Below are positions 1,647 through 34,014 of a DNA stretch of 34,014 bases, one piece after another. The notes under the pieces are model-generated. The model saw only the letters and a list, made by a program, of their open reading frames with translations. It was not told where the DNA came from and did not search any database. Source of the stretch: a virus. Both the position numbers and the translations under genes were made by a program. The first letter of the stretch is position 1, and the number at the start of each line of letters is the position of its first letter. The stretch covers positions 1 to 34,014 of IMG/VR virus record IMGVR_UViG_3300022934_000082; one strand, given 5' to 3'.

Positions 1647-1836
1647 AAAGTATGGTCCGTTTATGGACCTCTGTGAAATGGCAGACCTTCTCAAAGTACA
1701 AAAGGATGCAATTTACAAACAGGCAGCGCGCGGTAAATTAACGCTGCCTTATATCAAAAACGGTAAAAAATATTTATTTCCCACGCCCGAAGTTGCTGCT
1801 TACCTTGAATCAAAAGTCATTAATTACCCTCTATAA
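1627..1836 (+). CDS. Excisionase-like helix-turn-helix protein
   Basis: A 69-residue protein made almost entirely of a winged-helix DNA-binding domain of the excisionase/AlpA (HTH_17) type: 'MDLCEMADLLKVQKDAIYKQAARGKLTLPYIKNGKKYLF', where a recognition helix is followed by a beta wing, ending in a short helix 'PEVAAYLES'. Small proteins of this kind act as recombination directionality factors or as transcription regulators. It is the last gene of the rightward operon, overlaps the preceding gene by 20 bases, and its 3' end overlaps the 3' end of the convergent integrase by 17 bases. Position beside the integrase favours an Xis role, but no functional motif separates Xis from a regulator. A weak AGGA lies about 10 bases before the ATG. 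Confidence 0.65.
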   Translation: MEQILLEKYGPFMDLCEMADLLKVQKDAIYKQAARGKLTLPYIKNGKKYLFPTPEVAAYLESKVINYPL

Positions 1837-2866
1837 CAGCCAACACCTCTCCAGGTTTCAGCTGCGTGTAGCGCTTCAAGGTGTCCCATGACTTATGACC
1901 GGATACCAAGGCTACCTGTTCTATTGAAAGCCCTTGCTCAAACAAACGGCTACATGCCTCGTGTCTAAGATCATGAAAACGCAGATCAGGACATCCGGCT
2001 AACTGGGCAACGTCTGCAAACTTGTCTGACACAGCACCCGCTGTAGCCACCTGACAAAACACCCTGCCCCGCTGCTTGCTGCACAACCATAAACCATGAA
2101 GCAGGGTCCATGTCTCATGGAGCATGGGGATTGTTTCATCGTTGCCTTCTTTCTCATGAGGATCTTTGCGGTCTCGGATAGTTAGTGTGCGATTGTCAAA
2201 GTCCACATCTTCCCAAGTCTGCCGGTGTATCTCCCCAAGACGCATAGCGTTGTGCACAGCAATAACAATAAAGTGTGAGATCCAGTGTCCTTTTGACGCT
2301 TCCATAAGTTTTTCGTACTCGCCAGAAGCAAGCCTACGTGCACGCTTGCGACTCGGACCCACCAACTTCATCTTTGCAAGCGCGTAGCGCGCGTCTCTCA
2401 CAGGGTTTGTTTCAAATGGCATGTCCCATGAGATGCGAGCAAACTCAACAAGCTCCGCCATATACTGCAGCTGAGTATTAAGCGTGCTTCGTGCTACACC
2501 TTTCCTGTCGTCTGTACCAAGCCTACGTTGCCGCCCATAGTCCAAGACTTTTTCAATCGTAATCTCATGCAGCTTGTAGTGCCCGATGTCGCGTTGCGTC
2601 AGCCGGTAAGTAGCAATTTTGGATTCGCAGAAATTGTTGAGCGGATGGACTTCTTCAATGTAACGATCAATCAGGTCGCCAAACGTAGTTTTCTTTTGTG
2701 ATTGTCGCTTGCGTGCCAACAAAGCGCCGGACTCAATGTCTGCTTCCGTCCGCTTTGCCCACTGTCTGGCTTCAGTTTTAGTGTCAAATGTTTGGACAGT
2801 CGTTGGATATCCTGCTTTCCTAACAACCGCCCGCCACTTATCGCCTCTTTGCTGTATCGACGCCAT
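1820..2866 (-). CDS. int: Tyrosine-recombinase integrase
   Basis: A 348-residue site-specific recombinase of normal phage-integrase length. The N-terminal part (about 1-60) is a small arm-binding domain, then a SAM-like core-binding domain (about 62-150), then the catalytic domain (about 175-345). The catalytic set is visible: R209 in 'NAMRLGEI', K234, H298 and R301 in 'FHDLRH', H324 in 'SGHKSW' and the nucleophile Y333 in 'KRYTQL'. The start at 2866 is chosen because AGGAG lies 7 bases upstream and the protein then begins 'MASIQQRGDKW', typical of the family; an ATG at 2881 adds five residues but overlaps a repeat site. It would integrate the phage at the attP found about 100 bases upstream. 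Confidence 0.95.
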   Translation of the reverse strand: MASIQQRGDKWRAVVRKAGYPTTVQTFDTKTEARQWAKRTEADIESGALLARKRQSQKKTTFGDLIDRYIEEVHPLNNFCESKIATYRLTQRDIGHYKLHEITIEKVLDYGRQRRLGTDDRKGVARSTLNTQLQYMAELVEFARISWDMPFETNPVRDARYALAKMKLVGPSRKRARRLASGEYEKLMEASKGHWISHFIVIAVHNAMRLGEIHRQTWEDVDFDNRTLTIRDRKDPHEKEGNDETIPMLHETWTLLHGLWLCSKQRGRVFCQVATAGAVSDKFADVAQLAGCPDLRFHDLRHEACSRLFEQGLSIEQVALVSGHKSWDTLKRYTQLKPGEVLAVIEGN

Positions 2867-2877
2867 CTTGGCTCCTA

Positions 2878-2900
2878 TCAACTGTACCTAAATTGTACCT
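2878..2900 (+). repeat. Paired AAYTGTACC repeats, integrase-proximal arm
   Basis: Two direct copies, AACTGTACC at 2880-2888 and AATTGTACC at 2891-2899, spaced 11 bases (about one helical turn). A nearly identical pair lies at 3081-3104 on the other side of the tRNA-like core. They probably bind the integrase N-terminal domain (arm-type sites) or the excisionase. The copies lie in the integrase leader, just upstream of its ribosome binding site, so bound protein could also regulate int. Confidence 0.65.
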
Positions 2901-3788: not shown

Positions 3789-6700
3789 TTCTTAGCCGCC
3801 AATACCGTCAAACCATTAGCCCCTATCTTATAAGGCGCAGTGCTGTTTACCTGATCATTTGCGTGAACTTGCAAGCCAAAGTAATAGTTTGTGTTTGGCT
3901 GAAGATTCGCAGACGACACGTCGATAGTGGCATTCAGCGAATAAGTCGCACTGAAATCCGTGCGTTGCGACCCCCCCACCTGCTGAACCTGAATCACATT
4001 AGAAGAAAACGTAGGGCTGGTTGACCGAATCAAACGGACGCGCACAGTTTTATGAGCGCTACCGGACTGACCAAGAACATTAATGCAGGCTATAAGATTA
4101 ATCGCCTCGGGAGCTTTGTCAGCATCATCCCAGCTCAGAGGAACCGCTGTTTGTCCACCTGCGCTCCCAGTGTGCGCCGCAAGCCCCCAGTTAGTGCCAA
4201 TAGCAGTATCAGAAGTAGTGCCGGAATACGCTACCCAGTCACCAACATTAATATCATCAACACCGATAGGAACGGTGACAGCATTGCCCGCAATCTGAAG
4301 TGTATCGACCGAAAGATCACGAATATATGTAGACACATACTTAGGTGTAATCTGCGGCGGGGTTCGTGATACACCTACATTGTAGTAATAGACGTAATCA
4401 CCCGTATTAGAACCGAATCTAATTTCCCCATACTCAGCAGAAGCTGGGACTGTTATCGCTGCAATAGACGACTGTCGATTATTCCCACCCGCAGTAATCG
4501 CTTCGGAGTCAAAGTCACCATTTGAATTTGACGCGGAAACGGTCCCCACAGACCCAGTTGTCGATGTGCCATCTGAATGAGAGTAAAACGTAACTGCCAT
4601 CCACAGCCCAGTTAAAGTACTCGTCTGTGCATAAACGTATAGTTTTTCTCCCGGCACTACTGGAAAACGCTGCGTATTAGAGCGGACATACCCAGTGCCA
4701 GTTGAATTATCACCAGCACGTATGTAGCCAAGGTCATTTCGCTCTAATACCGTGCCGCTATAGCTAACAAATCCATCAATATCTGCTGTGTCTTCTGTCC
4801 ACGTCGACGTGTTTTCGTTAAAAGTAAGCTCACCACGTCTAAAATTCGCGTTATAAACAAGATTACCGCCGCTGCTCCCGGTCATGCCACCTGCGTCAAC
4901 AAGCACCGTACCGTCAGGAGCCTTGATCGTAACGCCTTCCATCACAGCAGAGTTGGCATGCATCACGCCGAGTGCATCGACAGAGAAATTACTAGCGCGT
5001 GTATTACTATTAGTAATAGTCCAATCACGGGGATCAGTACTATTGTTGTAACTGATTTGCCCCATGTTAAATGTGCCGCCAAAGATATTTGGCGCGGTTA
5101 GAGCTGCTGTCGCTGTTATAAAATCAGCAACAACGCTGCCTGCAATTAGGTCAAGGACACGGCCTTTATTCATAAAAGCAGTGTCAATATAAACACCGGC
5201 AGGCACTGTTTCGCCTTGCAGCGTTGTTGGACTAGTTATAACCGCAAACGGTAAATGAGTTAATGTTGTACTCCACTGAGTATTATCTGCGTCGTAATAA
5301 TAAGTCTCGTCTAAATCGCTACGATATACAGTACGCCCGGCGTAAAGATTAGTAGTCGGGAAAGATCCATTTGAAACTGTTGTCGCAGGTAAAACAGCAA
5401 ACCGGTCTGCGCGAACATAAAATTCAGAACTAGAGCCGCTGAATGTATTTGAAGAACTTGCTAACCCAAAACCAGCAACAGTACCCCCGGTATCAATTTT
5501 AATTGTGTACTGACCTTCAAGATCTGTTATGTCGTCTTGATTAGTCGCCGTTACTTGATACGCTTCCTCTATAGTGACACCTGACGAATTGCCCGATACG
5601 TCATCTAATCGGGCAGTAATCTGATTAAAATTGTACGCGGAGGCAGTAGCCGATGCTGCCGCAGCGCTAGCTGAAGAAGCAGCTCCACTAGCGCTTGTTT
5701 GCGCTGCGGTCGCGCTGCCAGCAGCTTGTGTCGCGCTACTCGCTGCATTTGATGATTCACTTTGGGCAATAGAAGCGCTACCTGCTGCGTTTGTAGCACT
5801 ACCGGCTGCAGCAGTTTCACTTGTTGCTGCATTACCAGCGCTTGTATTTGCTGCATTTGCGCTAGCAGCCGCATTTGTAGCACTAGTAGCTGCACCAGAC
5901 GCGCTGCCCGCTGCATTTGATTCACTTGTAGCGGCACTGGTTTCGCTTGAAGCTGCATTGGCCTCGGATTGACTAGCGTTGCTTTCACTCGCTGCCGCAT
6001 TTGTAGCTGAACTAGAAGCTGAACTCGCGCTACCAGCAGCATTGGACTCACTTGTAGCTGCTTGAGTTGCACTAGAAGCTGCATTCGCAGCGGATTGACT
6101 TGCGTTGCTTGCGCTGCCAGCAGCTGCTGTTGCTGATAATGCAGCATTAGACTCGCTACCAGCCGCATTAGACTCGCTTGCAGCCGCAGCTTGTTCTGAA
6201 GTATATGCATTTCCTTCTGATGCGCTTGCAAGACTCGCACTATTGGCCGCATTTGTAGCACTAGTAGCCGCTGCAGATGCGCTACCTGCTGCATTAGAAG
6301 CGCTACCCGCAGCGCTAGTTTCGCTTGAAGATGCGTTAGATGCAGCCGTATTTGCTGTGTTTGCAGAAGACGCCGCATTTGTAGCACTAGTCGCTGCAAG
6401 AGACGCACTACCACCGGCAGCAAGTACATCAGCTGCTGTAGCTAACACGTCTGCTGCTGTAGCCAGCGCATCAGCAGCAGTAGCTGCTGCATCAGCTGCT
6501 GCTGCAGTAGCGGAGTTTTGAGCCGCTAACGCAGATGCCGCAGCTGATGACGTTGACCCAAAAGTTGTTTCAAGGTCAGCGACAGTTGTCTCAATATCAT
6601 CAATAGTAGTTGTTAACGCTTGATTTAACTCACTCTCTCCTATTGAGCCAGCAAGCAAATTTAAAAGATAAGTAACGTCAGGCTGTGTCTCACCTAACGT

Positions 6701-9713: not shown

Positions 9714-12197
9714 TTACCCCGCTAACGCAGCAGTTGGTGGGGTAAAGTTAGATGTGTAGCGGGCTAGACCTTTGGTAACTCTGAAGTCAGAAATATACCC
9801 ATGCGCCGGATACGTGCTATTACTAATTGTTAAATCTGATGTGCCAGAAAACGACGCGGACGTAGTTGAAGCAACTTCGCTTCCGTCTATGAACACTTTT
9901 AATGTAGTGCCGTCGTAGGTCACAGCAAAATGATTCCACTGCCCAGATGTCCACCCAGACGACCCTGTTACGCTTCCGGTACTTGTCCAATAAAACGTCA
10001 GGGTGCCGCCATTATTATAGAGACGGCCAGCCGTCGCATATCCTGCGGCGTCTGCGTAAATTGCGTCGAATCCTGAAGATGACGCATCAGGGAAATACCA
10101 ACCCTCTATCGTAAATTTACTTGCGTTCCCTATTAGATCGCCAGAACCAACCAAGGTTAGATAATCACCCGCCCCATCAAAATACATTGACGAAGTTAAA
10201 TACTTTGTCTGAGTAGTGGACGACTTAACGTCACCGTTTAACGTGATCGTTTTGACGGACTGAGACTTATCAATAATGGCAGCGTCCGTGCCGTTAAGAA
10301 GCAGAGAGGTGTTGGTGATAGCTGTTAGTGGTGCTGTTGGAGGTGTGAAGTCTGCTGTACGCACTGCGCTACCTACAACATATCTAAGGTCCGAAACAAT
10401 TGCCTCTGTGTGCCTATTGCCGTTAGTGGCACCGCTCAATATGGCTAGACTGTCACTTGAGTTCATGAATGACAGAGTATTGGTGAATGTTGCAGTTTGC
10501 TTCCCGTTTTTAAAAAATCTAAACGTATTGCCATCTCGACTGAAACATAGATGTTGCCATTTAAAATCATTTTTAGCCCATCCGGTATCAACGTTAGACC
10601 CCAGATCCCACGCACTACCACTTGAAGAACCATACATCACATAATTTGAGCCGCCAGAACCTGTGTAAAGCAGAATTGATCCAAAATTTCCAAATGACCA
10701 ACCTTTAACAAAAAGAGCTTGCTCATTGCCTACCGTCGCAAGTGGGTAAAGCCAGAATTCAATACAGAAATCATTTCCGCTTGGCTCTAGACTCGGATCA
10801 TCTGCTACGGTGATATTGCTTGATCCATCAAAATATATCGACCCGCCGTTGCTGCCTTCTGAGTAGCCGTTGTAGTCGTAGGGGCTAAATGGCTCTGTTT
10901 TGGTGTTGCCATTTACAGTTATAGAATGACTGTTAGTTGAGCCGTCTGCTATATAAGGAAGATGACAGGTAAGCAGGCTGGTGTTGGTTATTGCCGTGAG
11001 GGATTCTGTCGGCGGTGTAAAAGCAGACGTATAGACGGCAGTGCCTTTTACAACACGAAAGTCGCGGATGTAACCATTAAAACATTGAGCAGCCGCAGCG
11101 CCATAGATTGCGCCTATTCCTAAGTACGTCCCTGAGTAGTTTGCCCCGTCGGAAGCTCCTACCACAGCCGTCCCATCTACATAAAGAGTGGTATAACTGT
11201 TGGTGCCACGAACTAAAGCAACGTGATACCACCGATTCAAAGAGTACGTCACGGTGCTTTGGTATGAGGTGTTGTTGGCATAGATAGCCCACTTAGTTCC
11301 GCTGTTAGTAATCTGTATCGCAGAAGAAGCGGACGCAGTCGTTGGGAAATGGCTTCCTCCTGTTTGAAAAATCCCCCGATCTCCTGTTGATAAGATATAA
11401 ACCCACGCTTCTACCGTGAACGCGCCAGTTCCAAAAGCCACTGTTGATGTTGACGGCACTGTTAAAGTATCGCCATTTCCATCAAGGTAAGTCGAATACC
11501 CGCCATGTCGATACGGACTAAACGTGTTTTGCGTTACGTCGCCGCTGACGGTAATTGTGTGGCTGTTTGTGGAGGAGTCAGTAAACGAACTGTTGGTAGC
11601 GTTGTTTGCCCCCACAGACGTAATTAAAGCGGTTGTGTAATTGCTGTCTTCAATTTGAAGCTGCAACGTAAAGCTACTTACCGCCGTCGCGATATTGACT
11701 CCGTCACTTGCTCTGAAAGTCAGACTAAACGTCCCCGCATTGGTGCTCGGAGTGATGGTAAAGACGTTGCTATTAGACCCCGTGCCCTGTGAAACAGTAG
11801 CAATATTTCCAGACGTATCCGACGCAATACTATAAGTAATCGGGAGACCCTCGGGGTCAGTCGCAGTAATCGTAACCGTTGTAGGTGTACCGTCGGCCGC
11901 AAGAGCGTAAGACCCGCTAACGCCACTAATGCTGGGCGTGGTGTTGATCAAAGCAATGTTGTACCAGCCGGTGCCGTTCCAGATATACAGGCGGTTGTTG
12001 CCTGTGACAAACGCTTGATCGCCGGTCGATGCACCAGACAAGGGCAGCAGGTCAATCGTTGCATATACCGTGGTACTTGATCCTGATGCGGCTGCACCAT
12101 CCCAGCGCGTTTTGCTGCTGCTGTAGGTGTAAGTAATCCCGTTCGAGGTTACCGTATCGCCGTCAGAAGGTGAGTTGGGAAAGTTATACGCGGCCAT
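9714..12197 (-). CDS. Tail adhesin with three LamG/concanavalin-like domains (paralogue A)
   Basis: An 827-residue fibre or adhesin. Residues 1-35 carry the phage module 'FPNSPSDGDTVTSNGITYTYSSSKTRWDG'. Residues about 85-185 form a cadherin/Ig-like domain ('ATDPEGLPITYSI...TFRASDGVNIA'). Three LamG-like lectin domains follow (about 225-400, 445-610, 660-825), each with 'YFDGxGD', 'FTIEGW/FTVEAW', 'WYHVALVR' or 'WNHFAVTY' and a closing 'IRDFRVVKG(T)AVYT' motif. LamG folds commonly bind glycans. It is the close paralogue of the next upstream gene, 3 bases away. Probably a surface glycan-binding virion protein; how it attaches is not visible. Confidence 0.78.
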   Translation of the reverse strand: MAAYNFPNSPSDGDTVTSNGITYTYSSSKTRWDGAAASGSSTTVYATIDLLPLSGASTGDQAFVTGNNRLYIWNGTGWYNIALINTTPSISGVSGSYALAADGTPTTVTITATDPEGLPITYSIASDTSGNIATVSQGTGSNSNVFTITPSTNAGTFSLTFRASDGVNIATAVSSFTLQLQIEDSNYTTALITSVGANNATNSSFTDSSTNSHTITVSGDVTQNTFSPYRHGGYSTYLDGNGDTLTVPSTSTVAFGTGAFTVEAWVYILSTGDRGIFQTGGSHFPTTASASSAIQITNSGTKWAIYANNTSYQSTVTYSLNRWYHVALVRGTNSYTTLYVDGTAVVGASDGANYSGTYLGIGAIYGAAAAQCFNGYIRDFRVVKGTAVYTSAFTPPTESLTAITNTSLLTCHLPYIADGSTNSHSITVNGNTKTEPFSPYDYNGYSEGSNGGSIYFDGSSNITVADDPSLEPSGNDFCIEFWLYPLATVGNEQALFVKGWSFGNFGSILLYTGSGGSNYVMYGSSSGSAWDLGSNVDTGWAKNDFKWQHLCFSRDGNTFRFFKNGKQTATFTNTLSFMNSSDSLAILSGATNGNRHTEAIVSDLRYVVGSAVRTADFTPPTAPLTAITNTSLLLNGTDAAIIDKSQSVKTITLNGDVKSSTTQTKYLTSSMYFDGAGDYLTLVGSGDLIGNASKFTIEGWYFPDASSSGFDAIYADAAGYATAGRLYNNGGTLTFYWTSTGSVTGSSGWTSGQWNHFAVTYDGTTLKVFIDGSEVASTTSASFSGTSDLTISNSTYPAHGYISDFRVTKGLARYTSNFTPPTAALAG

Positions 12198-12200
12198 CTG

Positions 12201-14774
12201 TTAACCCTCTAGAGCGGCTGATGGAATGTTGGCGGTTTCGTCTGAGGCTGTGTAACGTGCCAAACCTTTGGTGACTCTCAGATCTGAGGCATACCCTGTC
12301 CACCTCCTGATGCTAGAGTTGTAATGGTTTAAAGTTAAAAAGACAGAGTCGTAGTCAAAGCTATCTGATCCGCTTCCCGTCAGTGACCCATCAACGTAAA
12401 AACGAATAGTCCCATTTTCCCGAGCAATGGCGATGTGATGCCAAGTATTATTACTAAAAGTTGATGAGGTGAAGCCTGTCGTTGGATAGTTCGGGTAATA
12501 CGACCACGACCCGTCACCACTTTGCTGCAGCCACAGATTGGACGTATCGCCAGCATGGCGCATGTCTAGGATGGCTCGGTAATTCGACCCCCCAGGGTTT
12601 ATATTTGTAAAGTACGCCCACCACTCAATAGTAAAATCTCCAGTGCCAATAGTGCCTGGTAGCTCAGCCGTTAAGAAGTCTGTTTGCGCCGCAAAAGACA
12701 TAGACGAGGTCAGGTACTTAGTCTGAGCGGTAGATGATTTGACGTTACCGTTTAACGTGATTGTTTTAGCAGACTGAGACTTATCGATAATGCCTGCGTT
12801 TGTTCCGTTAAGGAGTAAAGAGGTGTTAGTTATTGCTGTCAGTGGGGCTGTCGGGGGAGTAAACGCAGAAGTGTAGACAGCGGTGCCTTTTACAATACGC
12901 ACATCCGCAAGGCTACCCTTAAACACCTGAGAGGGGGCTGCGCTGTCGTATCCTATGCCTATCCCCGTCGTCGCGTTTTGATTGTAACTGTTAGACGCTG
13001 TGCGTTTTGAAACACCATTAACGTAACAAGTAACAGTTCCACTTTCTCGAACAACAGCGATGTGAGTCCACTTATTAATTTCGTAATCAATAGCCGAAGT
13101 GAAAACGGCGCTAGTACCAAATACGAAGTCAAATGTGCCGCTTGAAAGCATTACGATTGACCAAGCTCCCGCGCCTGTTCCCAGAGCGCTAAGAGGGCGC
13201 ATTGTTGCGAAGTGATCGGGGTTCCACCACCATTCAAAAGTAAAATCACCAGTCCCCATTTGCAACGACGCATCGTTTGCAACTCCTGCGTAATCACCAG
13301 AGCCATCAAAGTAAATCGACCCGCCATGCGTAGCGGCGTCGTATTCTTCACGGTCGTAAGGACTAAAAGCTGATATCGAAGGAGCGCCAGAGAATCCAAT
13401 AGTCCCTGCGTTGCTCGAATCGTCTGTTAGTGTAGCGTTGTTTAGTAAAAATAAAGTGTCTGTGTCAGAAGTGAAGCTTTCAGTTGGGACATCAAAAGTA
13501 CTAGAGTATCGCGCCACAGACGATACGCGGACGTCCTTGATATACCCTCCGTAGCTAAAGGTCGTGTAGTTGTACCCAATATTTATGGTGGTATCCGTAA
13601 TATTTAATGATCTAGTAACGGTCCCTAGCGAAGAGCCATTAGCAAAGCACTCTAGGTCGGTTCCATCATATACAAATGCAAAATGTATCCACCGATTCGT
13701 CGTATTTGCTATATTAAAAGTAGAATCGGTAGTTCCTGCGGCACGGAATGTTGTTGTCGAGCCTTGTAAACCAATAGCAAAGCCGGTAGTCGAATTTATT
13801 GCGCCTACGTGAATCGCAACGTCAATTCCAGAGCCGTTACCCCCAGTCCTATAAAACCATGCCTCTATCGTCCATGCAGATGATCCCATAGCGGAGAGCG
13901 TGGAAGTGTGGGACTCTGCGACGGTCTCTCTGTAAAGATGAGAATACCCACCGTGCCTATAGGGACTAAACGTGTTCTGAGTTACATTTCCATAGGCGGT
14001 GATCGCATGAGAATTTGATGAGCTGTCAGTAAACGAATTGTTAACTGCGTTGTTAGCTCCCACAGAAGTAATTAGCGCTGTGGTGTAGTTGCTGTCTTGA
14101 ACAACAGCAGGACCAAAAACCAAACTAAACGTAGAGCTTGCCGACGCGATGTTTGTACCGTCACTAGCCCTAAACACCAGCGTGAAGCTGCCCGCATCGG
14201 CTGTGTTAGTGCTTGGCGTAATAGTCCACTGATTAGTATTTGATCCAGTACCCTGCGCGACCGTGGCAACGCTGCCAGACGTATCGCTGACAATACTGTA
14301 GGTAAGAGGAATGCCCTCTGGATCAGTAGCGGTAACCGTGACTGTCGTAGCCGTTCCATCTGTGGCGAGTGCATACGTCGCGCTAACACCACTGATAGTC
14401 GGCGTTTGATTCACGATGCTGATTGAATACCAGCCAGTATCGCTGTAAATGTAGAGCTTATCCGTAGAGTCAACTAGCGCCATGGAGCCTTCAGTAACGC
14501 CCGTAAGCGGCAGATCATCAATCGTTGCGTATACCGTCACACCCGCGTCCGCGTCAGCCGGTTGCCACTCGCTGTCTGTGCTGTTCCACTGCAGGATCTG
14601 GCCGTTGGTGGGCGCACTGGTGGACGTATCTACGTCGGTCAGCGCGTCGATAGCCTGAGTTAGACCCTGCGGGTTATCAGACCAGACGCCCTGCGTAGAG
14701 TCGTAAGCGTAAGTGATCCCGCTGACGGTAATGGTCTGCCCGTTAGTGGGGTTGCTTGGGAAATTAACTGCCAT
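12201..14774 (-). CDS. Tail adhesin with three LamG/concanavalin-like domains (paralogue B)
   Basis: An 857-residue paralogue of the neighbouring 827-residue protein, with the same order: N-terminal 'FPSNPTNGQTITVSGITYAY' module, an extra 'ALTDVDTSTSAPTNGQILQW' module at about 43-72, cadherin/Ig-like domain (about 122-220), then three LamG-like domains (about 280-440, 485-650, 700-855). The segment after the second LamG ('PTAPLTAITNTSLLLNGT') is almost identical in the two proteins, while the first LamG domain differs more. This pattern suggests duplication followed by diversification of the binding domains and homogenisation of linkers. Predicted glycan-binding virion protein; the ligand is unknown. 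Confidence 0.78.
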   Translation of the reverse strand: MAVNFPSNPTNGQTITVSGITYAYDSTQGVWSDNPQGLTQAIDALTDVDTSTSAPTNGQILQWNSTDSEWQPADADAGVTVYATIDDLPLTGVTEGSMALVDSTDKLYIYSDTGWYSISIVNQTPTISGVSATYALATDGTATTVTVTATDPEGIPLTYSIVSDTSGSVATVAQGTGSNTNQWTITPSTNTADAGSFTLVFRASDGTNIASASSTFSLVFGPAVVQDSNYTTALITSVGANNAVNNSFTDSSSNSHAITAYGNVTQNTFSPYRHGGYSHLYRETVAESHTSTLSAMGSSAWTIEAWFYRTGGNGSGIDVAIHVGAINSTTGFAIGLQGSTTTFRAAGTTDSTFNIANTTNRWIHFAFVYDGTDLECFANGSSLGTVTRSLNITDTTINIGYNYTTFSYGGYIKDVRVSSVARYSSTFDVPTESFTSDTDTLFLLNNATLTDDSSNAGTIGFSGAPSISAFSPYDREEYDAATHGGSIYFDGSGDYAGVANDASLQMGTGDFTFEWWWNPDHFATMRPLSALGTGAGAWSIVMLSSGTFDFVFGTSAVFTSAIDYEINKWTHIAVVRESGTVTCYVNGVSKRTASNSYNQNATTGIGIGYDSAAPSQVFKGSLADVRIVKGTAVYTSAFTPPTAPLTAITNTSLLLNGTNAGIIDKSQSAKTITLNGNVKSSTAQTKYLTSSMSFAAQTDFLTAELPGTIGTGDFTIEWWAYFTNINPGGSNYRAILDMRHAGDTSNLWLQQSGDGSWSYYPNYPTTGFTSSTFSNNTWHHIAIARENGTIRFYVDGSLTGSGSDSFDYDSVFLTLNHYNSSIRRWTGYASDLRVTKGLARYTASDETANIPSAALEG

Positions 14775-16413: not shown

Positions 16414-17943
16414 TCAGCCTCCGAAGAACATATTTAGGGCGATGATGTTTGAGTTACTTGCTCCGCTTGACCCTGACCCACCGCCACCTGTCGGGTTGGC
16501 CTGCACCCACTGATTTGAATCGCCGTCGTTGTAATAGATGTAGGTCTTGAGAGCGTTGGGGTCGAACCACATATCCCCCGAGCTGGGGTTGCTCGGCGCA
16601 GTTTCTTGGATCGCCACAGATGTATTGGAATCGCGGGAACCGGAGGGGTTAGCCTTGACCCACTGCGACGAAGATCCATCGTTGTAGTAAACGTAAAGCC
16701 GCAGAGTAGTTGTGTCATACCAAAGATCGCCGTCAGACGGGGAGCTTGGTGCTGTATCTGCGGTGGTTACAGATGCCCCACCGCCACCGCCGCCAGACTG
16801 TGCAACCCAGTCGTAGTCTGTGCCGTTCCAGCTCAACACTTCGTTTGTGGCGGCGGTACTGGTGTTCAGGTGGCTATCAACGCTACTATTACTATACGAG
16901 CCGCCGCTCGGAGATACTGCATCCCAGCGACTGTTTGCGTTATCCCAGGTAAGCACCTGCCCGTCTGTGGGCGTCATGGCGTTTACATCAGACAAATCTT
17001 CGATACTTTGTCCGGTGATGTCGGTTAGATACGTTCCGAGATCGCTAATCTGCGATTCAGTGATCGAAAGAGCGGCTTGATGCTGGGTTACGCTGGACTG
17101 CGTAATATTTGCATTAGGCACGTTTGCCCACGTTACAGATGCCGTCAGGTCATTAGTCTCTGTATAGCTAGTTAAATAACCCGCTGTAGAGTGATCGCCC
17201 CAGCCGTAAGCTGTGTTCCAGTTGGTTATGTTAGTGGATGTAATGCCGTAGGCGGCAGACGCTACAAATACGGGGTCTGTTTCTGTGTAGCTGGTCAAGT
17301 AACCAGATAAATCAGGAGGCGTATAAGTGAAAGCGCCCGTGCTGTTGTTGTAGCTAAGGGCTGCTGTGCCTGCGGTGTTGGTGGTAACAGAGAGGTCGGT
17401 CAACGCTATGCCGCCGCTCGCTGTAGCAGGTTCCCACTGACTGTTCGCATTGTCCCAAGTTAGAACCTGCCCATCAGTCGGCGCTGTCGTTGATGTATCT
17501 ACATCACTGAGATCATCGATCTGCGCGGCTCTGGGGATGATAATTTCCCCTGCCATAGAGCCGTGATACTGACAGTTGTAGTAGAGCTTGGATGGGGCGT
17601 CCATTGGCACCGTAAACGTAATTGTCCCTACAGCGGTGCCGTTGTTTGTTACGCCATCAGAATATGCGTTCCCTGTGCCCGTGCCACTTGTACTATTAAT
17701 ATAGAAAGGATGACCAGAGGCATTAACCTCAAAATCGTAGGTCTGCCCCCGCGTCAAATATAGAGTCGGATTTGAATCTGAAGTCGTTCCTGAGCCACTA
17801 AAAAGATAAGCGCTAGAGCCGCTATTCGTAATAGTAAATAGACCGCTGCTGCTGGCGACATTCCAAACGCCGAGCGTTGAGTCGTACACGAATCCGTTAT
17901 GAACGTCACCATCCGAAGGGCTAGCGGGGAAATCTAAACTCAT
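16414..17943 (-). CDS. Tail fibre protein with cupredoxin-like (blue copper) domain
   Basis: A 509-residue fibre. Residues 4-29 are the '[23 protein letters not shown]' module. Residues about 33-137 look like a cupredoxin: '[20 protein letters not shown]' then '[18 protein letters not shown]', with H78, C124, H127 and M130 forming the Cys-x2-His-x2-Met plus upstream His set of type 1 copper sites. Two 'DLSDV...[16 protein letters not shown]' modules (about 143-172 and 315-345) flank a region with '[12 protein letters not shown]' repeats, and two '[23 protein letters not shown]' modules lie near the C-terminus. Its start overlaps the stop of the gene before it. The fibre role is well supported by context; copper binding is inferred from residues only. 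Confidence 0.75.
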
Positions 17944-18800
17944 GTGTCACCTAGCCTCTCAAAATATAGTCTTGCGACCAGCGAGTCACCAGAGCTGGCG
18001 CTTACTCCATATATGCGTACTTTGTGGGTAGACGTGTTTGTTACATCAAAAATATAAGTGGCACTTCCGTTACTGATGTCGTAAGAGCTTTCGCCTAACG
18101 TGCCTGTTACTGTGACGACGTTGCCCCATGAAACGCCGTTACTACCTGTAACTGAGATAGCAGCCTCGACCGCGCTGCTAAAACAAGTAAACTCAAAGTC
18201 GGCCTGTACTTTGTAGATCCCAGTGGATGGAAATGTAAAAACACCGCTCGAAACAGACATCCCTGTTCCAATATAAGAGCCGAGTCTGTTCCAGTTACCA
18301 GTAAGCGCTGCACCATTTAACTGATAGCCGTCGCTTTCCCAGTTGTCTGCCTCGGCAGCGCTCGGAGCAGCGCCTGTCTCCCATTTGGATGTCGATGAGT
18401 TATAGACAAGAAGATCACCATTTGACGGAGTGCCCAAGCTGGTATCGGTCAGTCCATCAAGAGTAGTTCCTCCTGCAACCGATGCCGAAGGAGTACCTGA
18501 TGCTACCCACTGACTGGAGTTGCCATCGTTGTAGTAGACGTAAGTGACACCGTTCGTTTCCGAAAACCACAGGTCACCATCAGAAGGACTAGATGGTGCG
18601 GTTGCAGACGTTGTTACGCTAGCCCCGCCGCCTGTAGCTACAGCCCAAACGCCATCCTTCCTTACATACTCATTTCCATCAGACGCTGCCGATCCCGCCG
18701 CATCTTCTAGCTTGTCTGTATTTAAGTTGGTGAAATTAGAGTCCACCTCTGTGTTAGTCAGAGGTGAACCCTTTCCACTCCGCGTGACTATAGTAGCCAT
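17940..18800 (-). CDS. Tail fibre protein with C1q-like C-terminal domain
   Basis: A 286-residue protein. The N-terminus '[27 protein letters not shown]' is a common start of marine phage fibres. It then has one '[28 protein letters not shown]' module (about 70-98) and one '[20 protein letters not shown]' module (about 118-145). The last 120 residues, '[22 protein letters not shown]...[23 protein letters not shown]', resemble the C1q/TNF-like jelly roll (G-x-F-x-x-P-x-x-G-x-Y), a trimeric binding head used by several fibres. GAGGAAC precedes the ATG. The C1q-like call rests on one motif and the strand pattern. Confidence 0.68.
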
Positions 18801-21884: not shown

Positions 21885-24800
21885 CTATAACTGGTTATAA
21901 ATCGGCGCAAGGCGATTGCCGAAAGTACGGTCTACGCGCCATCCATTCTTAAACGCCTCTTCAATTGTTTCGGCGGTTGGCCCCAACAAGCTGAAGATCG
22001 CAGAGCCGCCCCACTCCGAGTTCTGATGCGCCATTCGCGCCATGCTAAGTGGCCCTAAGAACCCAGACTTTTCGATAATCTCAAACCAGTAATCATCCCA
22101 GTCCATTTTATCGGAGCGGAAATATTTCTGATCTGCTTCAACGCCCGGCAATAACCACGCTAATCCGTTCTTGGCATACTCACGCAGCTCCATGCCCATC
22201 ATCGCAAGTGGCATGGTCGCAACTGCGGTCAGCATCAAGATGGCTGAGACAGCGGTAAGCTGCGCTGCACCAGTCGTGTCGTCTACGCGCGCTTTGCCCT
22301 CGCGCAGTACCCCACCGATGATGGTCTTATAGTAGCTATAGAAATAACCCTTTAGCTGCCAAACCAAAGCCCATCGGGGATCAGAAGCCCAGACAGGTCG
22401 TTCTGCAGCGTTGGGACGCATAATCGATGATTCAACAAAACGCGCCAGCGCGTCTCGCACTTTAGTACCCTCGGGCGTGTCGAAGTTTCTGTTTTCATTC
22501 CACGCCAAAACTTCTTCGGCAGTAACGCCCAGTTCTTGCAAGTACCGCGTAGAGTTAGGATTATCGAATTCGTTACGGGCGTGCTTAAGCAGGAACTGCA
22601 CACCCATGTTAGCCGCAAACTCCCGGCTAAATTTAGTAAAGAAATCCAACCCAATGAGCCGGAAATAGCCGTCTGACAATTGACGGACAAGCGGGTCCAT
22701 ATAGTCCTGCTCCGCTTGGGTCACCCACGCGTTGGCAACCGTTTCGCTGGTAACAACCCCTATATCTCTGGCAAGTTGTTGTGCTTCTTCGCGATTCTTA
22801 ACTGTAGCGATGATCTGCTTAAAACCCATCCACAGACCACTAAAATCTTTGTAGTTGATTATTGGACCCGCCAGATCAGGCAGCGAAGCAATAGTGGCGA
22901 ATGGCAAGATCAATATAAACTGCAAAAACTGACCCCAGCTGTTTAACTTTCGCATCCACGGAGCGATAGGCTCTTTTTGATAGCCAAGGTACGTAGCTAT
23001 TATGTCTTCAGCTGTATTGCGGTCTTCGTCTGACAACTCGTCCAGTCTTTCCCGCAACGCCTCTGGCCCCCCTGTCGCTTTGTTGAACTCGATACGTTTA
23101 ATAACGTGACGCATGTAGTCGATAAACGCCGCATCGGGGGAGTTTACGAAATCACCTAATAGCTCCCTGTCAATATTAGCGGTCAGCTTAATCGCCTGCT
23201 CTACCGCCGCCGCCGGGTTCGTAGGATCAATAGCAGGCTCTTCTTCAATTGACTGACCAAGCCTCACAAGGCGGTCGATTGCTTGGTCAATACTCTTTGC
23301 AGCTGCCGATCTTTTCTCTGGCGTGTCTAGTGTGGGGTCGTTATCAAGCAACAGCTTTTTAAATTCAGCGCGGCGCTCGGTAATCTCGAAAAGATTCAAT
23401 GAAATTGGAAAATAATCAGGCCGCTTACCAATACCCGTATTGCTTGGCTCAATGTACTCGTCGTAGAACGCTTCTAGGTAATCGCGGATCTGCTTCGCTA
23501 CGCCGGTCAATTGGGCAGTCGGGGTGGAGCTAAACGCTTCTTGGAAACCCGCTTGCACTTCAGGCGAACTCATATCGCCAATCTCACGCTCAAACCGATT
23601 TTTCCAACGGCCAATAGTCGTGTTAGTAGCGCGAAGGAAACCAAGCTTGCCGCGTGCTGCCAAATCCTGCGACCGGACGTAGAACATATCCGCAATTTCA
23701 TCCCCCGCTACCCGACGGAGAATGTTATCTGCAGGAAGCAGCAAGCTGCGAATTGCGTTAAACAAGCTGTTCCTTGTCACTTTTTTGTAAGCGCGAGCTG
23801 TGGCGTTAGCTTCTGGGTTTTCTTGTATCTCTTCTACAATGTCAGGGATTAAAGTTTGCTGCGTCGTCTGCGTGTTGGCCTCTGCGCTGTGACGTGCCGC
23901 CGCGTCTAACGTACCTTCTATGTACTGCTCGAACGTCTCGTTGACCATGTCGTAGTTGGCAAAGCGACGCTTAAAATTGACGCGCGTGATGCTGTTAAAC
24001 AGATCCTTAAGGCGTCTCGCTAACTTCTTAAAGTGGCGCTCGGGTAGGTTACGAGCCTGCCGGTTGATATACTGCTTGCTAGCCCAACGAGCAACTTGAT
24101 CGGCATACCACTCCTCAAAGCCATTCTCAAATCGCTCGTAAGAGTCGTATTTTTTGTTGGCTCTGTAAGCAGCTTCCAGACGAGAGCGCAAAGCCGGGTT
24201 TGCCATAGCTTTGGTTTGCTCTTGACGGAACAGTGCGTGTCCAAGTTCGTGAGCAAGAACCAATGCGTCCTGCATGGAGTTGCCGGTCTCTTTGACAACG
24301 ATGGTGTTTGTCTGGCGGTCGTAGTACCCGAAAGCTGTCGACCGCTCAGTCAGTAAGCGACGCATGTTGAGAATTGCAGCAGCAACTGGAGGCGCGTACC
24401 GACTCCGTACTTCGGCATCTGACATACTCTGCAGCATAGAAAAACTAACGATCAAAGGTCGCTCATCAAGGTCAAGACGAGACTGCAGCTCGTCGTGCAC
24501 GCCCTTAACAATCGGGTCACTCTGCCAAGTTGCTGTTGGCCGTACTGGACGAGTTGGTTCGACCCGTGCGTCGGTAGTGGGTGCACCACCTGCGCGCCGA
24601 TCTGGGTTACCCCCAAACACCTCGTCACGAGTAGGCTCCTGAAGGGAGACCTCTTCAGTCTCCATCTCTGTACTAGCAGCTCGCTGCACTACATCACTGG
24701 GATCTTCTTCGGCGGTATTACGGCCATCCAGCTCGGGGTCAAAATCTCGACGTGCATTTACCGGACCAACATCGCTGGTGTTCTCTCGCACTTCTGCAGC

Positions 24801-27215
24801 ATTTACCTCCGAAGTAGAAACGCCGCGTCCCATCATAAAGCTAATACGACGCCCGCCTTTTGCCGCTTCAACGTCTAGCCCTTTAAACTTTCCGTTAGGC
24901 TCGTAATTAGCGTTGTCCAACAAGCTGACACCGTTTTTGTCAGTCAGGTCGTAGTTGTTATCAGCAAGCGTGGCAAACATTTCAGCCATACCGGCGCGCT
25001 GCGCGTTCAAATTACCCGCTTTATCATCTATAAACTGAGTTCCCTCATTGCCTTCAACGAGTATTCGACCAGCATTAACGAGAGCAACAAGGCTAACTTC
25101 TGCGCGAGAGCCATCCGGCTTAATAAGAATGGCATTGCGATCTTCTTTTTTACGCCCCTGCGCGTAGGTTATTTGTTTTTGAAGGAAGGGAATTAAGGGT
25201 AAGCGCTCATCACGACCGTTAAGCTGAAAGCGATAGCGTGTTTCAGCCACATCCTGCCGAACAACTTGAAACTTACCGCGCCGCTTAACAATATATACCG
25301 CAGCTTCCGGGTAGGCTTTTTGCTCTTCAATAGCTCTTTTCATCACAGAGCCGGTATATTCATTTAGCTGGGCGTCTTCACCGAATTGCTCGGTATACTC
25401 ATCACGCAACTCAATCTCATTCGGGAACGGTTCTTTTGAAGTATCTCGGGGAGCGTATTCAGCAATGACCTCGCCTTCTGCTTCGGAGATAGTCCTATTC
25501 TCTTCTATCTCACGTTGCTCAAACCGCTGCCTTTGCTCCTCACCCATGTTTTCAAAGACAGATTGATCTGTCATACCAAGCTCTTCTAGAGTTTCATCAT
25601 CAAACTCCATAGCGCGTGGTGCTTCGTCTTCAAGCTTTCGCTTTCGGTTTTCAAGAGCTTGATCTGCTGACAACACACGAACGCCAGCAGCGCCGAGTGG
25701 CGACAATCCTGCTGCGTTTTCTTGTGCTGTTCCCAGATTAGCAGCCGTCGTTAACTCAGCGGAAACAACGTTCCCATTTGTGTCGAGAGCTTCGACAACT
25801 AAATCCGCACCGTCGACTTTACTGGAGCTATACCCAAGAGCTTCTGCAAGTGACTCGTCGTTAGCGCCCGACTTGACAATCTCATCAGCGAGCGCCACAT
25901 CCTTTGTGACGATAGTGCCGCGCCCTGGCACATATCGCGCAAAAAAGACCTTATTATCGATAATGTAACGGCCATCTTCTGGAAACTGATCTCTGCCCTG
26001 TTCCCCGGCAAGCCATACCGCTTTTTTAGTGCTATTTGGGTCGTGGATGGCGTCCAACTGAGCATTAATGTCAGCTCTCGGCTCAGGGGTGGTTACTCCC
26101 GTGTCGGTTTCACCAAACTGTTCCGCATTGATACCGTCATCAACGCGCTGTTCTTGCGCCTGAGCCAGCTTTTCCCGAGCTTTACCAAAGACACGCTTTG
26201 TTTCGCCTGCAGCAACGCCCAGTGTCCCAGCAGCTGCCCCTGCAGCTTTACCACCTATGGTCCCAGCAAACAAAGCCTCCGCAAGGCGCAACTTTGCTTC
26301 TTCTTCAGTGAACTGATCGTCGAGGTCAAATCTATTAGCTACGCTAATTCCTTCTTGCAAGACTTCAGTCGTTCCTTCCGTTAAACCACCTCTGAACGTT
26401 GCACGACCTATGTCATTCGCTAACTTTTGAAATGGACCGCCGCTAGCCCCAGTAGCACGTCGCTGCGCGACATTGCCTACAATTTTTAACAGAGCGACTT
26501 CGCCACCGACACCAATAGCGGCTTGTGGGACACCTACTAATCCAGCACGCACTGCTTGCTCAGAAGTAAGATCTTGTCCTGACTCCAAAGCTTCAGACAG
26601 GTTACTGCCAGATAGTGGTACATACTCAGACCCAAATGCGCCTGCCAACGCACCGCGCCTAAAATACTTATAGTATTCCTCCGCTAAATACCGCTCTTCT
26701 GGGTCAGCAACGCCCTTTGCAGTGCGCTCTAAAGAATCTTTTATGACTCGTTTTGTAATAAGTTGTCCAGTGGTTGATAAGACACCTCTACCCACAACCG
26801 CTGTAATTCCGCCGACGCCCGCCCCCGCAATACTCGACACGATAGATGGAGTAAGCTGACCACTGGCGCTAGCAGCTTGTGTCAGAAACCCACTAAATGT
26901 CGGCGCATCTAAGAATTCTTTAAACGACTCTACACCTTGCATTGTTGGTGCAGACAACTCTTCGCTATACCTAGCGCGTTCTATCGCTTTTGCGGCAGCG
27001 TTTTCATCACCAGTGAGGGTATTTCCTAACGCCTTGAAGTATTCAATATCTGTACGAAGCCCTTGCGCTCCAGCTTGCAGGCCGCGAGAGAATGTTTCAC
27101 TTATATTAGTAGGGGCTAACGGACCGTCTTGCTCTGGAGCGATACGCGGGCGCGCCTCTCGAATAGCACCTTCTTCGGTCTCTTCTAAAAACCGCTGAAA
27201 CGCTTCTGTAGCCAC
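21885..27215 (-). CDS. Giant internal virion (ejection) protein with zinc-metallopeptidase motif
   Basis: A 1776-residue protein in the place of T7 gp16. Residues about 100-340 contain Gly/Ala-rich, potentially membrane-active stretches. A zinc-peptidase motif HELGH lies at 989-993 ('DALVLAHELGHALF'), and E1034/E1035 in 'GFEEWYADQVARWA' fits the third ligand of gluzincins. The C-terminal third has hydrophobic segments near 1420-1445 ('QFILILPFATIASL') and 1650-1675 ('AVSAILMLTAVATMPLAMMGM') and resembles the LPD38-type domain of large polyvalent phage proteins. No lysozyme-type transglycosylase motif was seen. Probably packaged in the capsid core and injected into the host envelope, where the peptidase could cut peptidoglycan, host proteins or itself; the target is unknown. 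Confidence 0.78.
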   Translation of the reverse strand: MATEAFQRFLEETEEGAIREARPRIAPEQDGPLAPTNISETFSRGLQAGAQGLRTDIEYFKALGNTLTGDENAAAKAIERARYSEELSAPTMQGVESFKEFLDAPTFSGFLTQAASASGQLTPSIVSSIAGAGVGGITAVVGRGVLSTTGQLITKRVIKDSLERTAKGVADPEERYLAEEYYKYFRRGALAGAFGSEYVPLSGSNLSEALESGQDLTSEQAVRAGLVGVPQAAIGVGGEVALLKIVGNVAQRRATGASGGPFQKLANDIGRATFRGGLTEGTTEVLQEGISVANRFDLDDQFTEEEAKLRLAEALFAGTIGGKAAGAAAGTLGVAAGETKRVFGKAREKLAQAQEQRVDDGINAEQFGETDTGVTTPEPRADINAQLDAIHDPNSTKKAVWLAGEQGRDQFPEDGRYIIDNKVFFARYVPGRGTIVTKDVALADEIVKSGANDESLAEALGYSSSKVDGADLVVEALDTNGNVVSAELTTAANLGTAQENAAGLSPLGAAGVRVLSADQALENRKRKLEDEAPRAMEFDDETLEELGMTDQSVFENMGEEQRQRFEQREIEENRTISEAEGEVIAEYAPRDTSKEPFPNEIELRDEYTEQFGEDAQLNEYTGSVMKRAIEEQKAYPEAAVYIVKRRGKFQVVRQDVAETRYRFQLNGRDERLPLIPFLQKQITYAQGRKKEDRNAILIKPDGSRAEVSLVALVNAGRILVEGNEGTQFIDDKAGNLNAQRAGMAEMFATLADNNYDLTDKNGVSLLDNANYEPNGKFKGLDVEAAKGGRRISFMMGRGVSTSEVNAAEVRENTSDVGPVNARRDFDPELDGRNTAEEDPSDVVQRAASTEMETEEVSLQEPTRDEVFGGNPDRRAGGAPTTDARVEPTRPVRPTATWQSDPIVKGVHDELQSRLDLDERPLIVSFSMLQSMSDAEVRSRYAPPVAAAILNMRRLLTERSTAFGYYDRQTNTIVVKETGNSMQDALVLAHELGHALFRQEQTKAMANPALRSRLEAAYRANKKYDSYERFENGFEEWYADQVARWASKQYINRQARNLPERHFKKLARRLKDLFNSITRVNFKRRFANYDMVNETFEQYIEGTLDAAARHSAEANTQTTQQTLIPDIVEEIQENPEANATARAYKKVTRNSLFNAIRSLLLPADNILRRVAGDEIADMFYVRSQDLAARGKLGFLRATNTTIGRWKNRFEREIGDMSSPEVQAGFQEAFSSTPTAQLTGVAKQIRDYLEAFYDEYIEPSNTGIGKRPDYFPISLNLFEITERRAEFKKLLLDNDPTLDTPEKRSAAAKSIDQAIDRLVRLGQSIEEEPAIDPTNPAAAVEQAIKLTANIDRELLGDFVNSPDAAFIDYMRHVIKRIEFNKATGGPEALRERLDELSDEDRNTAEDIIATYLGYQKEPIAPWMRKLNSWGQFLQFILILPFATIASLPDLAGPIINYKDFSGLWMGFKQIIATVKNREEAQQLARDIGVVTSETVANAWVTQAEQDYMDPLVRQLSDGYFRLIGLDFFTKFSREFAANMGVQFLLKHARNEFDNPNSTRYLQELGVTAEEVLAWNENRNFDTPEGTKVRDALARFVESSIMRPNAAERPVWASDPRWALVWQLKGYFYSYYKTIIGGVLREGKARVDDTTGAAQLTAVSAILMLTAVATMPLAMMGMELREYAKNGLAWLLPGVEADQKYFRSDKMDWDDYWFEIIEKSGFLGPLSMARMAHQNSEWGGSAIFSLLGPTAETIEEAFKNGWRVDRTFGNRLAPIYNQL

Positions 27216-32926: not shown

Positions 32927-34014
32927 TTACTGAGCAGTGTCGAGACAGATAACGCCAAAGTCTTCAACAGTGCCGTTGTGGTCGCTGTTGTACTTAGGCT
33001 TACGCAGGCCGAAGATCTTGCCGATTGAGATACCAGCTTGGTTCTCGTAATCGAAAGTATCTTCTACGATCTCTGGGAGACCGATGTCAGCCATGGCGAG
33101 CGCTTGAGCACCACAGAACAGCGCGCGTGCACCAACTACGTCAGCGTCAGCGCCCCACTGATAACCAGCAGCGCCAGCATTAGCGCTAGTACCAGTCGTA
33201 GCACCTTCGGTTGAGAAGACGTGGCGGAACTCATGGACCATCACACCATCAACCATCAGTGAAGCAGAGCCTGAGAACAGCTCGTTATTAGGACCACGAA
33301 CGCCGGCGTTACGAACGTTAGTGAGGAAGTCGTTATCGAGCTTCAGGTTAGCCATCTGCTGCGGAGTGACGAACAGGTGGAATAGCTCCTGATTGCCTTG
33401 ACCACGCATGCCACGGATGTAGTTGTCTTTGGCGTAAGCCTTCAACTCTACGATGTGGCGGTAGCCCAACTTGTCAGTAGCAGTTACAGCCGTGGTGTCT
33501 CCAGCAACGATGTCGTTGCCTGAGATGCGGCGGTGACGGTTAGCAGTAGGCGCAGACACGTCAGACGCATACTCCAGATCTACCAGCTCGTGACCAGTGC
33601 TTCCAGATGTGGGCCGCAAAGCACCGTTAGTCTTGTGGGTGTAAGCCACACCAGACAGGGTCAACAGCGCCAGCTGGTCCATACGGTCAGCCATAGCATA
33701 CGCCAGCATGTCCCGAGAAGTCTCACGGAAGTTGACGACAGACTTCTGGTCGGCCAATCGGCCAGCGATTCGGTTCGCGAAACGCAGCTGATCAAGCTCA
33801 ATGGTAATGTCGTAGCTTCTGAGAGCTTCTTCATTACCTTCCAGGGTGTTGTCACCAGTGATACCGTCTCCGGTCATGTCGGCGAGCAGGGTCAGTACAG
33901 CGCGGGTGCCCTTCTCAGACTTGGTGAGTTCAGTGACTCGCTGGACCATGGCGTTAGAGCCACTGCCTGCGAACTGGTTAATGAAAGATGCGTTGCGAGC
34001 AACACGCCAAAAAT
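32927..34014 (-). CDS. Major capsid protein, N4-gp56 family, 5'-truncated
   Basis: The frame is open to the right edge, giving at least 361 residues; the apparent ATG at 33949 is internal, because 'FWRVARNASFINQFAGSGSNA' continues upstream in frame. The sequence 'MVQRVTELTKSEKGTRAVLTLLADM', 'DNTLEGNEEALRSYDITIELDQLRFANR', 'VNFRETSRDMLAYAMADRMDQLALLTL' is the hallmark of N4-gp56 capsid proteins, and the C-terminus ('PEIVEDTFDYENQAGISIGKIFGLRKPKYN') is complete. It forms the icosahedral shell. Probably only a few dozen N-terminal residues are missing. Capsid genes of this kind usually follow portal and scaffold genes, expected beyond the window. Confidence 0.95.
   Translation of the reverse strand, partial: FWRVARNASFINQFAGSGSNAMVQRVTELTKSEKGTRAVLTLLADMTGDGITGDNTLEGNEEALRSYDITIELDQLRFANRIAGRLADQKSVVNFRETSRDMLAYAMADRMDQLALLTLSGVAYTHKTNGALRPTSGSTGHELVDLEYASDVSAPTANRHRRISGNDIVAGDTTAVTATDKLGYRHIVELKAYAKDNYIRGMRGQGNQELFHLFVTPQQMANLKLDNDFLTNVRNAGVRGPNNELFSGSASLMVDGVMVHEFRHVFSTEGATTGTSANAGAAGYQWGADADVVGARALFCGAQALAMADIGLPEIVEDTFDYENQAGISIGKIFGLRKPKYNSDHNGTVEDFGVICLDTAQ

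Follow-up and report, generated by a model that had tools for sequence, protein, structure and literature searches.

The window analyzed here covers positions 1–34,014 of the IMG/VR record IMGVR_UViG_3300022934_000082, a stretch of 34,014 nucleotides belonging to an aquatic phage. On its minus strand, an ORF at 16414–17943 encodes a 509-aa putative virion structural protein. Its matches to PHROG tail families (phrog_9729, tail fiber protein, 4.8e-79; phrog_677, baseplate wedge tail fiber protein connector, 2.3e-44) and its position among structural genes identify it as a putative tail or fiber protein. The gene lies in a minus-strand structural run, with the major head protein (32927–33949; related to Pseudomonas phage KPP25) on one side and tail-fiber genes and an integrase on the other. 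The integrase gene (1820–2881, minus strand; phrog_1, 8e-51) adjoins the tail-fiber genes, which suggests that the window phage is temperate. Also on the minus strand, a gene at 21885–27215 encodes a virion-like protein of 1776 aa with an M78/IrrE-type metallopeptidase motif (PF06114, 1.9e-6). The region 9714–14774 (minus strand) encodes two proteins, 827 and 857 aa long, that match virion and baseplate proteins in PHROG. The longer one carries laminin-G/ConA-like domains (PF13385, 1.9e-41), and both proteins are likely to be adhesion proteins.

Three parts can be distinguished in the 509-aa protein. Its N-terminal 32 aa (17848–17943, minus strand) are conserved in close relatives (alignment A6), where they follow the pattern FPxxPSxGDxxNGFxY...LGVWxV, and correspond to a small repeated module of marine phage fiber proteins. 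No N-terminus of the T4 gp9/gp10 type was seen in the window protein in this alignment. Residues 33–137 (17533–17847, minus strand) form a cupredoxin domain according to an AlphaFold2 model, fold matches in the PDB, and a family profile. Toward the C-terminus, similar units recur ([13 protein letters not shown]...SSQW). An adjoining 286-aa protein has, in the stretch encoded at 18477–18770 (minus strand), the C-terminal module in common with the 509-aa protein (51% identity) and lacks the cupredoxin domain.

Fold and Ligand Set of the N-Terminal Domain

A sequence-only reading of the window had described a cupredoxin strand pattern in the N-terminal domain, and structure prediction bore this out. 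From an alignment of 30 domains, AlphaFold2 produced an eight-stranded model with a mean pLDDT of 95.6 and a pTM of 0.87. In this model, numbered as the residue number minus 31, H47 (H78 of the protein) stands just ahead of strand 49–52, C93 (C124) closes strand 88–93, and H96 (H127) and M99 (M130) are found in the loop before strand 100–104. The predicted placement of the ligands is that of cupredoxins. The model of the full-length protein (pLDDT 50) was too poor to locate the cupredoxin domain within it.

Copper proteins occur all through the top 32 matches of the domain in the PDB (Foldseek, ≤1e-3). Using VIA-align, the N-terminal cupredoxin domain of the Hyphomicrobium nitrite reductase (HdNIR, 2dv6) superposed with a Z of 11.7 and 1.9 Å over 93 residues, followed by rusticyanin (Z 9.4–10.0) and small laccases (Z about 9.5). 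At the level of the fold, the confident cupredoxin model and its nearest neighbors among copper proteins support a predicted geometry able to bind metal, on which the sequence-only reading depended. Structural neighbors in BFVD include A0A481YVH3 and A0A481Z6J5, annotated as "beta-sandwich proteins" of Marseillevirus- and pithovirus-like giant viruses.

The cupredoxin nature of the domain is visible by profiles and folds only and not by single-sequence search. The window protein matched no copper family in Pfam or PHROG, remaining below the Pfam cut-offs, and a phmmer search of the PDB with its single sequence gave no match. A profile built from 36 members of the family, searched against PDB sequences, retrieved 34 matches, mostly blue copper proteins, among which are amicyanins, plastocyanins, azurin, and auracyanins; the best is a nitrite reductase (4e-4). 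Thirteen of the 36 members match PF00127 (Copper-bind), and the relative L041 clears the gathering score of this family (23.7 vs. 21.2 bits). A weak profile match was also obtained with the At5g54830-like domain (PF25489), whose member proteins are cellular, and secreted or membrane proteins.

The four candidate ligands lie exactly where the sequence-only reading had put them in the 509-aa ORF. Given by their minus-strand codons, they are H78, the first ligand, within a G-H-P-F motif (17710–17712); C124, the thiolate ligand and sole cysteine of the whole protein (17572–17574); H127, the second histidine ligand (17563–17565); and M130, the axial ligand (17554–17556). Residues 33–137 contain no other histidine than H78 and H127. 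The type 2 and type 3 histidine clusters of multicopper oxidases are therefore absent, and the domain holds no oxidase site.

The C-x2-H-x2-M spacing of the ligand loop had been presented as the exact arrangement of blue copper proteins. This is correct for amicyanin and for the copper domains of some nitrite reductases, which share the spacing, but not for plastocyanin and pseudoazurin, in which it is C-x2-H-x4-M. The closest solved folds, those of rusticyanin and of the Hyphomicrobium nitrite reductase N-terminal domain, have a C-x4-H-x4-M loop and, unlike the phage domain, belong to redox enzymes or carriers. Amicyanin combines the cupredoxin fold, the same ligand types, and the short loop with sequence-profile matches to the phage family. 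However, it is a free periplasmic electron carrier and not a part of virions, and its first histidine occurs in a P-H-N context, compared with G-H-P-F in the phage domain. The best score with the NCBIfam amicyanin equivalog TIGR02657 was 19 bits, versus a cut-off of 110.2. In the profile alignment with amicyanin and plastocyanin, the H-P of the family sits two residues ahead of their P-H. For this reason, the equivalence of the first histidine rests on its position in the fold and on its joint loss with the other ligands. The first ligand of rusticyanin is found in a G-H-x-F context, and the type 1 histidine of multicopper oxidases and small laccases in an H-P-x motif.

Distribution among Phages and Cellular Relatives

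By tblastn, relatives of the domain were identified in 353 phage records, 347 of which are named Synechococcus, Prochlorococcus, or cyanophage. Carriers include myoviruses, such as P-SSM2, S-SSM7, and Bellamy, and podoviruses, such as P-GSP1 and P-SCSP2; scans of IMG/VR added hundreds of further copies. In annotations, the carrier proteins mostly appear as "baseplate wedge tail fiber connector," as tail fiber, or as hypothetical. In most phage copies, the domain lies at the C-terminus of a baseplate protein with a T4 gp10/gp9-like N-terminus. In cyanophages of the T4-like group, the N-terminus of this protein matches T4 gp10 (2.9e-10) and gp9 (1.5e-8), and its C-terminal stretch matches amicyanin. 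T4 gp9 and gp10 thus have the N-terminal segment in common with the cyanophage carriers, but lack the cupredoxin domain. By homology, the predicted domain is widespread as a module of baseplate and fiber proteins in cyanophages, far beyond one marine phage.

A longer relative, with an extra insert between the first histidine and the cysteine, occurs in further cyanophage baseplate or fiber proteins: P-HM1 gp7 (L060, 1–6294), S-SM1 SSM1_104 (L250, 15618–19781), and proteins of 1532 and 1524 aa (L035 and L040, respectively). Several of these longer copies end in the same YY-x-C-x2-H-x2-M. In P-SSM2 (L050), a gene annotated piuC (5137–5730) lies three genes after the cupredoxin-bearing fiber gene.

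In S-SM1, whose virion proteomics has been published (PMC3037559), the domain is present in gp9 with all its ligands, and the same genome has a separate plastocyanin gene with a different ligand loop. Like the domain described here, this petE plastocyanin of cyanophages is a phage-borne cupredoxin. Unlike it, petE is a separate auxiliary gene whose product has an export signal and a C-x2-H-x4-M loop and is not a virion protein. An origin of the domain from petE is not supported, as both the ligand loop and the context of the first histidine differ.

A scan of genomes with alignment A2, using a pattern that ends before the cysteine, identified 27 contigs encoding the domain, some of which (e.g., L164) seem to be of phage origin and to have been binned with bacteria. 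The best cellular matches are secreted lipoproteins of flavobacteria that bear a C-terminal copy with 53–60% identity and all four ligands (HCHM). Those of the CHRD type have the same ligand set at about 60% identity, but are cellular, secreted or membrane proteins and not virion proteins. As secreted lipoproteins carry it, the domain is at home outside the cytosol. In the flavobacterial loci L145–L163, CHRD-like repeats (HPAHIH) or other repeats are paired with the C-terminal cupredoxin domain. Proteins of the PS1 clade contain two copies each.

Ligand Conservation and Joint Loss

In alignment A1, 35 of the 36 rows have all four ligands and the remaining row has none of them. The pattern used for the second IMG/VR scan contained C, H, and M and was thus biased toward ligand conservation. 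Less biased counts were for this reason taken from the third IMG/VR scan (alignment A4, ending before the cysteine) and from the genome-contig scan. Among the 96 domains retrieved without the Cys/His/Met loop (non-redundant at 80%), 81 have HCHM intact. When all scans are considered (156 domains at the same redundancy), 140 carry the four ligands; the other 16 are each missing at least two and up to four, and the loss of exactly one was never observed in this set. In these 16, the three in-plane ligands are all gone in 12 cases and two of them in four. The sequence-only reading, which hinged on the conservation of the ligands across homologs, is strengthened by these counts. H78 is conserved, and lost jointly with C124 and H127, the latter being conserved as well; M130 is the best-conserved ligand, and some otherwise ligand-less copies retain this methionine.

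The coupling of the ligands stands out when conserved columns are compared pairwise (406 pairs). The top three places go to the in-plane His/Cys/His pairs (phi 0.93, 0.93, and 0.84), compared with a mean of 0.13 and a maximum of 0.73 for the other pairs. In 10,000 trials of column shuffling, a procedure that ignores relatedness, at most ten rows had two or more in-plane losses, versus 16 observed. When the ligand columns were left out of tree building, parsimony required eight ligand changes on the resulting tree, at least three of them forced by well-supported branches; this tree is based on 98 columns and most of its forks are poorly resolved. The single-ligand change seen in L031 (C to A alone) is the only one of its kind and was removed at 80% redundancy. 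This copy is 98% identical to the intact L028, from which it differs by a local block of four residues. We rejected it as a true single-ligand loss and took the change to be a sequencing error or a fresh lesion.

Copies without ligands retain 84% of the other conserved columns, as against 88% in intact copies, which indicates that they are related domains that still fold rather than debris. A group of ligand-less copies (L225–L228, L239–L241, L243, L248, and L249), a natural metal-free version of the domain, lies near aa 205–300 of phage proteins of about 2290 aa. Some of these copies in large proteins keep the cysteine without any histidine (FCQM). In the intact non-redundant copies, the C-x2-H-x2-M spacing is invariant (140/140) and a proline follows the first histidine in 137 of 140. 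Such an identical loop argues against chance. The codons of the ligands are mixed (TGC 58 and TGT 82 for the cysteine; CAT 114 and CAC 26, and CAC 40 and CAT 100, for the two histidines). Because their third positions vary in this way, the ligands are held by selection rather than by recent common descent.

Nature and Role of the Site

The ligands are kept in most copies and lost jointly, form the most strongly coupled pairs, and are shared by the lipoprotein copies. We infer from this a working metal site, almost surely of type 1 copper, under selection on proteins that belong to the virion by homology. The interpretation that we favor, with good confidence, is that of a genuine cupredoxin domain whose type 1 site is functional and whose loop is amicyanin-like, serving as a module of a virion structural protein. 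Taken by itself, the predicted binding of copper is highly probable. For copper working mainly as a structural cofactor that holds the ligand loops in place within a joint or adhesion module, the chances are about even.

Because the cytosol holds little free copper, loading would most likely follow export or lysis and take place beyond this reducing compartment, in the lysate or seawater. Once bound, the metal would make the ligand loops stiffer in a module that joins fiber parts or meets a partner. The long tail fiber of T4 attaches to gp9. Since cyanomyoviruses have the domain at the C-terminal end of a baseplate protein with a T4 gp9/gp10 N-terminus, it may sit at the joint between baseplate and fiber. 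In the window phage, it lies near the N-terminus of a modular fiber-like protein. The existence of ligand-less copies implies that the fold has uses without bound metal and that copper is probably dispensable for some versions of the domain. Type 1 sites usually serve electron transfer, and a structural-cofactor role leaves this ligand type unexplained.

Host-surface binding or copper piracy is a possible but rather unlikely alternative, according to which a host protein handling copper or cupredoxins would recognize the loaded domain, in a copper version of the "Ferrojan horse." Tail fibers with iron-bearing HxH motifs are a published precedent (PMC11705849), nearly all carriers are phages of cyanobacteria, which use copper for plastocyanin, and the about 60% identity to domains of secreted flavobacterial lipoproteins indicates that an extracellular setting works. 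However, no host partner is known, the domain occurs at the baseplate and not only in fibers, and other likely adhesion proteins (LamG) are encoded near the gene in the window phage.

The almost perfect coupling of the in-plane ligands, in a set of the electron-transfer type, would also suit a redox or copper-sensing switch. The type 1 copper would take an electron, or gain or lose copper, at the host surface, and thereby change the baseplate–fiber joint and help trigger infection. From what is known of T4, the end of the gp9/gp10-like protein, where cyanomyoviruses have the domain, is where the fiber signal would pass. As no redox partner is known and ligand-less copies sit in similar large phage structural proteins, we regard this switch as improbable. 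At least as improbable is a cupredoxin fold of purely structural value, in which H/C/H/M would hold another metal (e.g., Zn) or none. The 10–15% or so of copies that lack the ligands and keep the other conserved positions do imply a fold useful without metal, but the saturated synonymous codons at invariant ligands and their all-or-none loss favor a working site, and Cys-His-His-Met is the copper set. Finally, the idea that the residues came together by chance in an ordinary immunoglobulin-like fiber domain has nothing in its favor beyond the short motif itself. Against it stand 353 phage records, a spacing without exception in the intact copies, and copper proteins as nearest folds, and the conservation data refute it.

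The sequence-only reading had seen no obvious precedent for a metal-binding domain on a phage tail. This has to be restricted, as iron is held by HxH motifs in T4 gp37 and in tail fibers of marine phages (PMC11705849). Those sites resemble the one proposed here in placing a metal on a phage fiber, but they are of a different kind: the metal is iron, in octahedral coordination by histidines only, and the sites belong to trimeric fiber shafts and not to a dedicated metalloprotein domain (PMC11705849). In the open-licence text of PMC, we found no paper linking a cupredoxin to cyanophages or to a tail fiber in this way; a subscription paper may exist.

The analysis extends the sequence-only reading by the family itself, by its distribution across cyanophage baseplates, and by an all-or-none pattern of the ligands. 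The domain represents a cupredoxin placed in a new setting. A module so far labeled "baseplate wedge tail fiber connector" or "hypothetical protein" thereby receives a likely nature, and its metal-less versions provide a natural control series. By prediction, the spread of the domain suggests that many virus particles display copper. In its boldest and unlikely form, this would mean that marine phages, cyanophages above all, bear loaded blue copper centers on their baseplates and fibers, that this copper takes part in infection, whether by giving a redox trigger at the baseplate–fiber joint or by baiting the copper handling of the host, and that virions are also a pool of protein-bound copper in seawater. 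If virions do carry type 1 copper, cyanophages, which are among the most abundant viruses of the ocean, would display a redox-capable metalloprotein domain on their host-facing part. Copper would then join iron as a known metal of tail fibers, effects of trace metals on infection could be tested, and isolates already in culture would offer an easily scored marker (blue color, EPR, ICP-MS).
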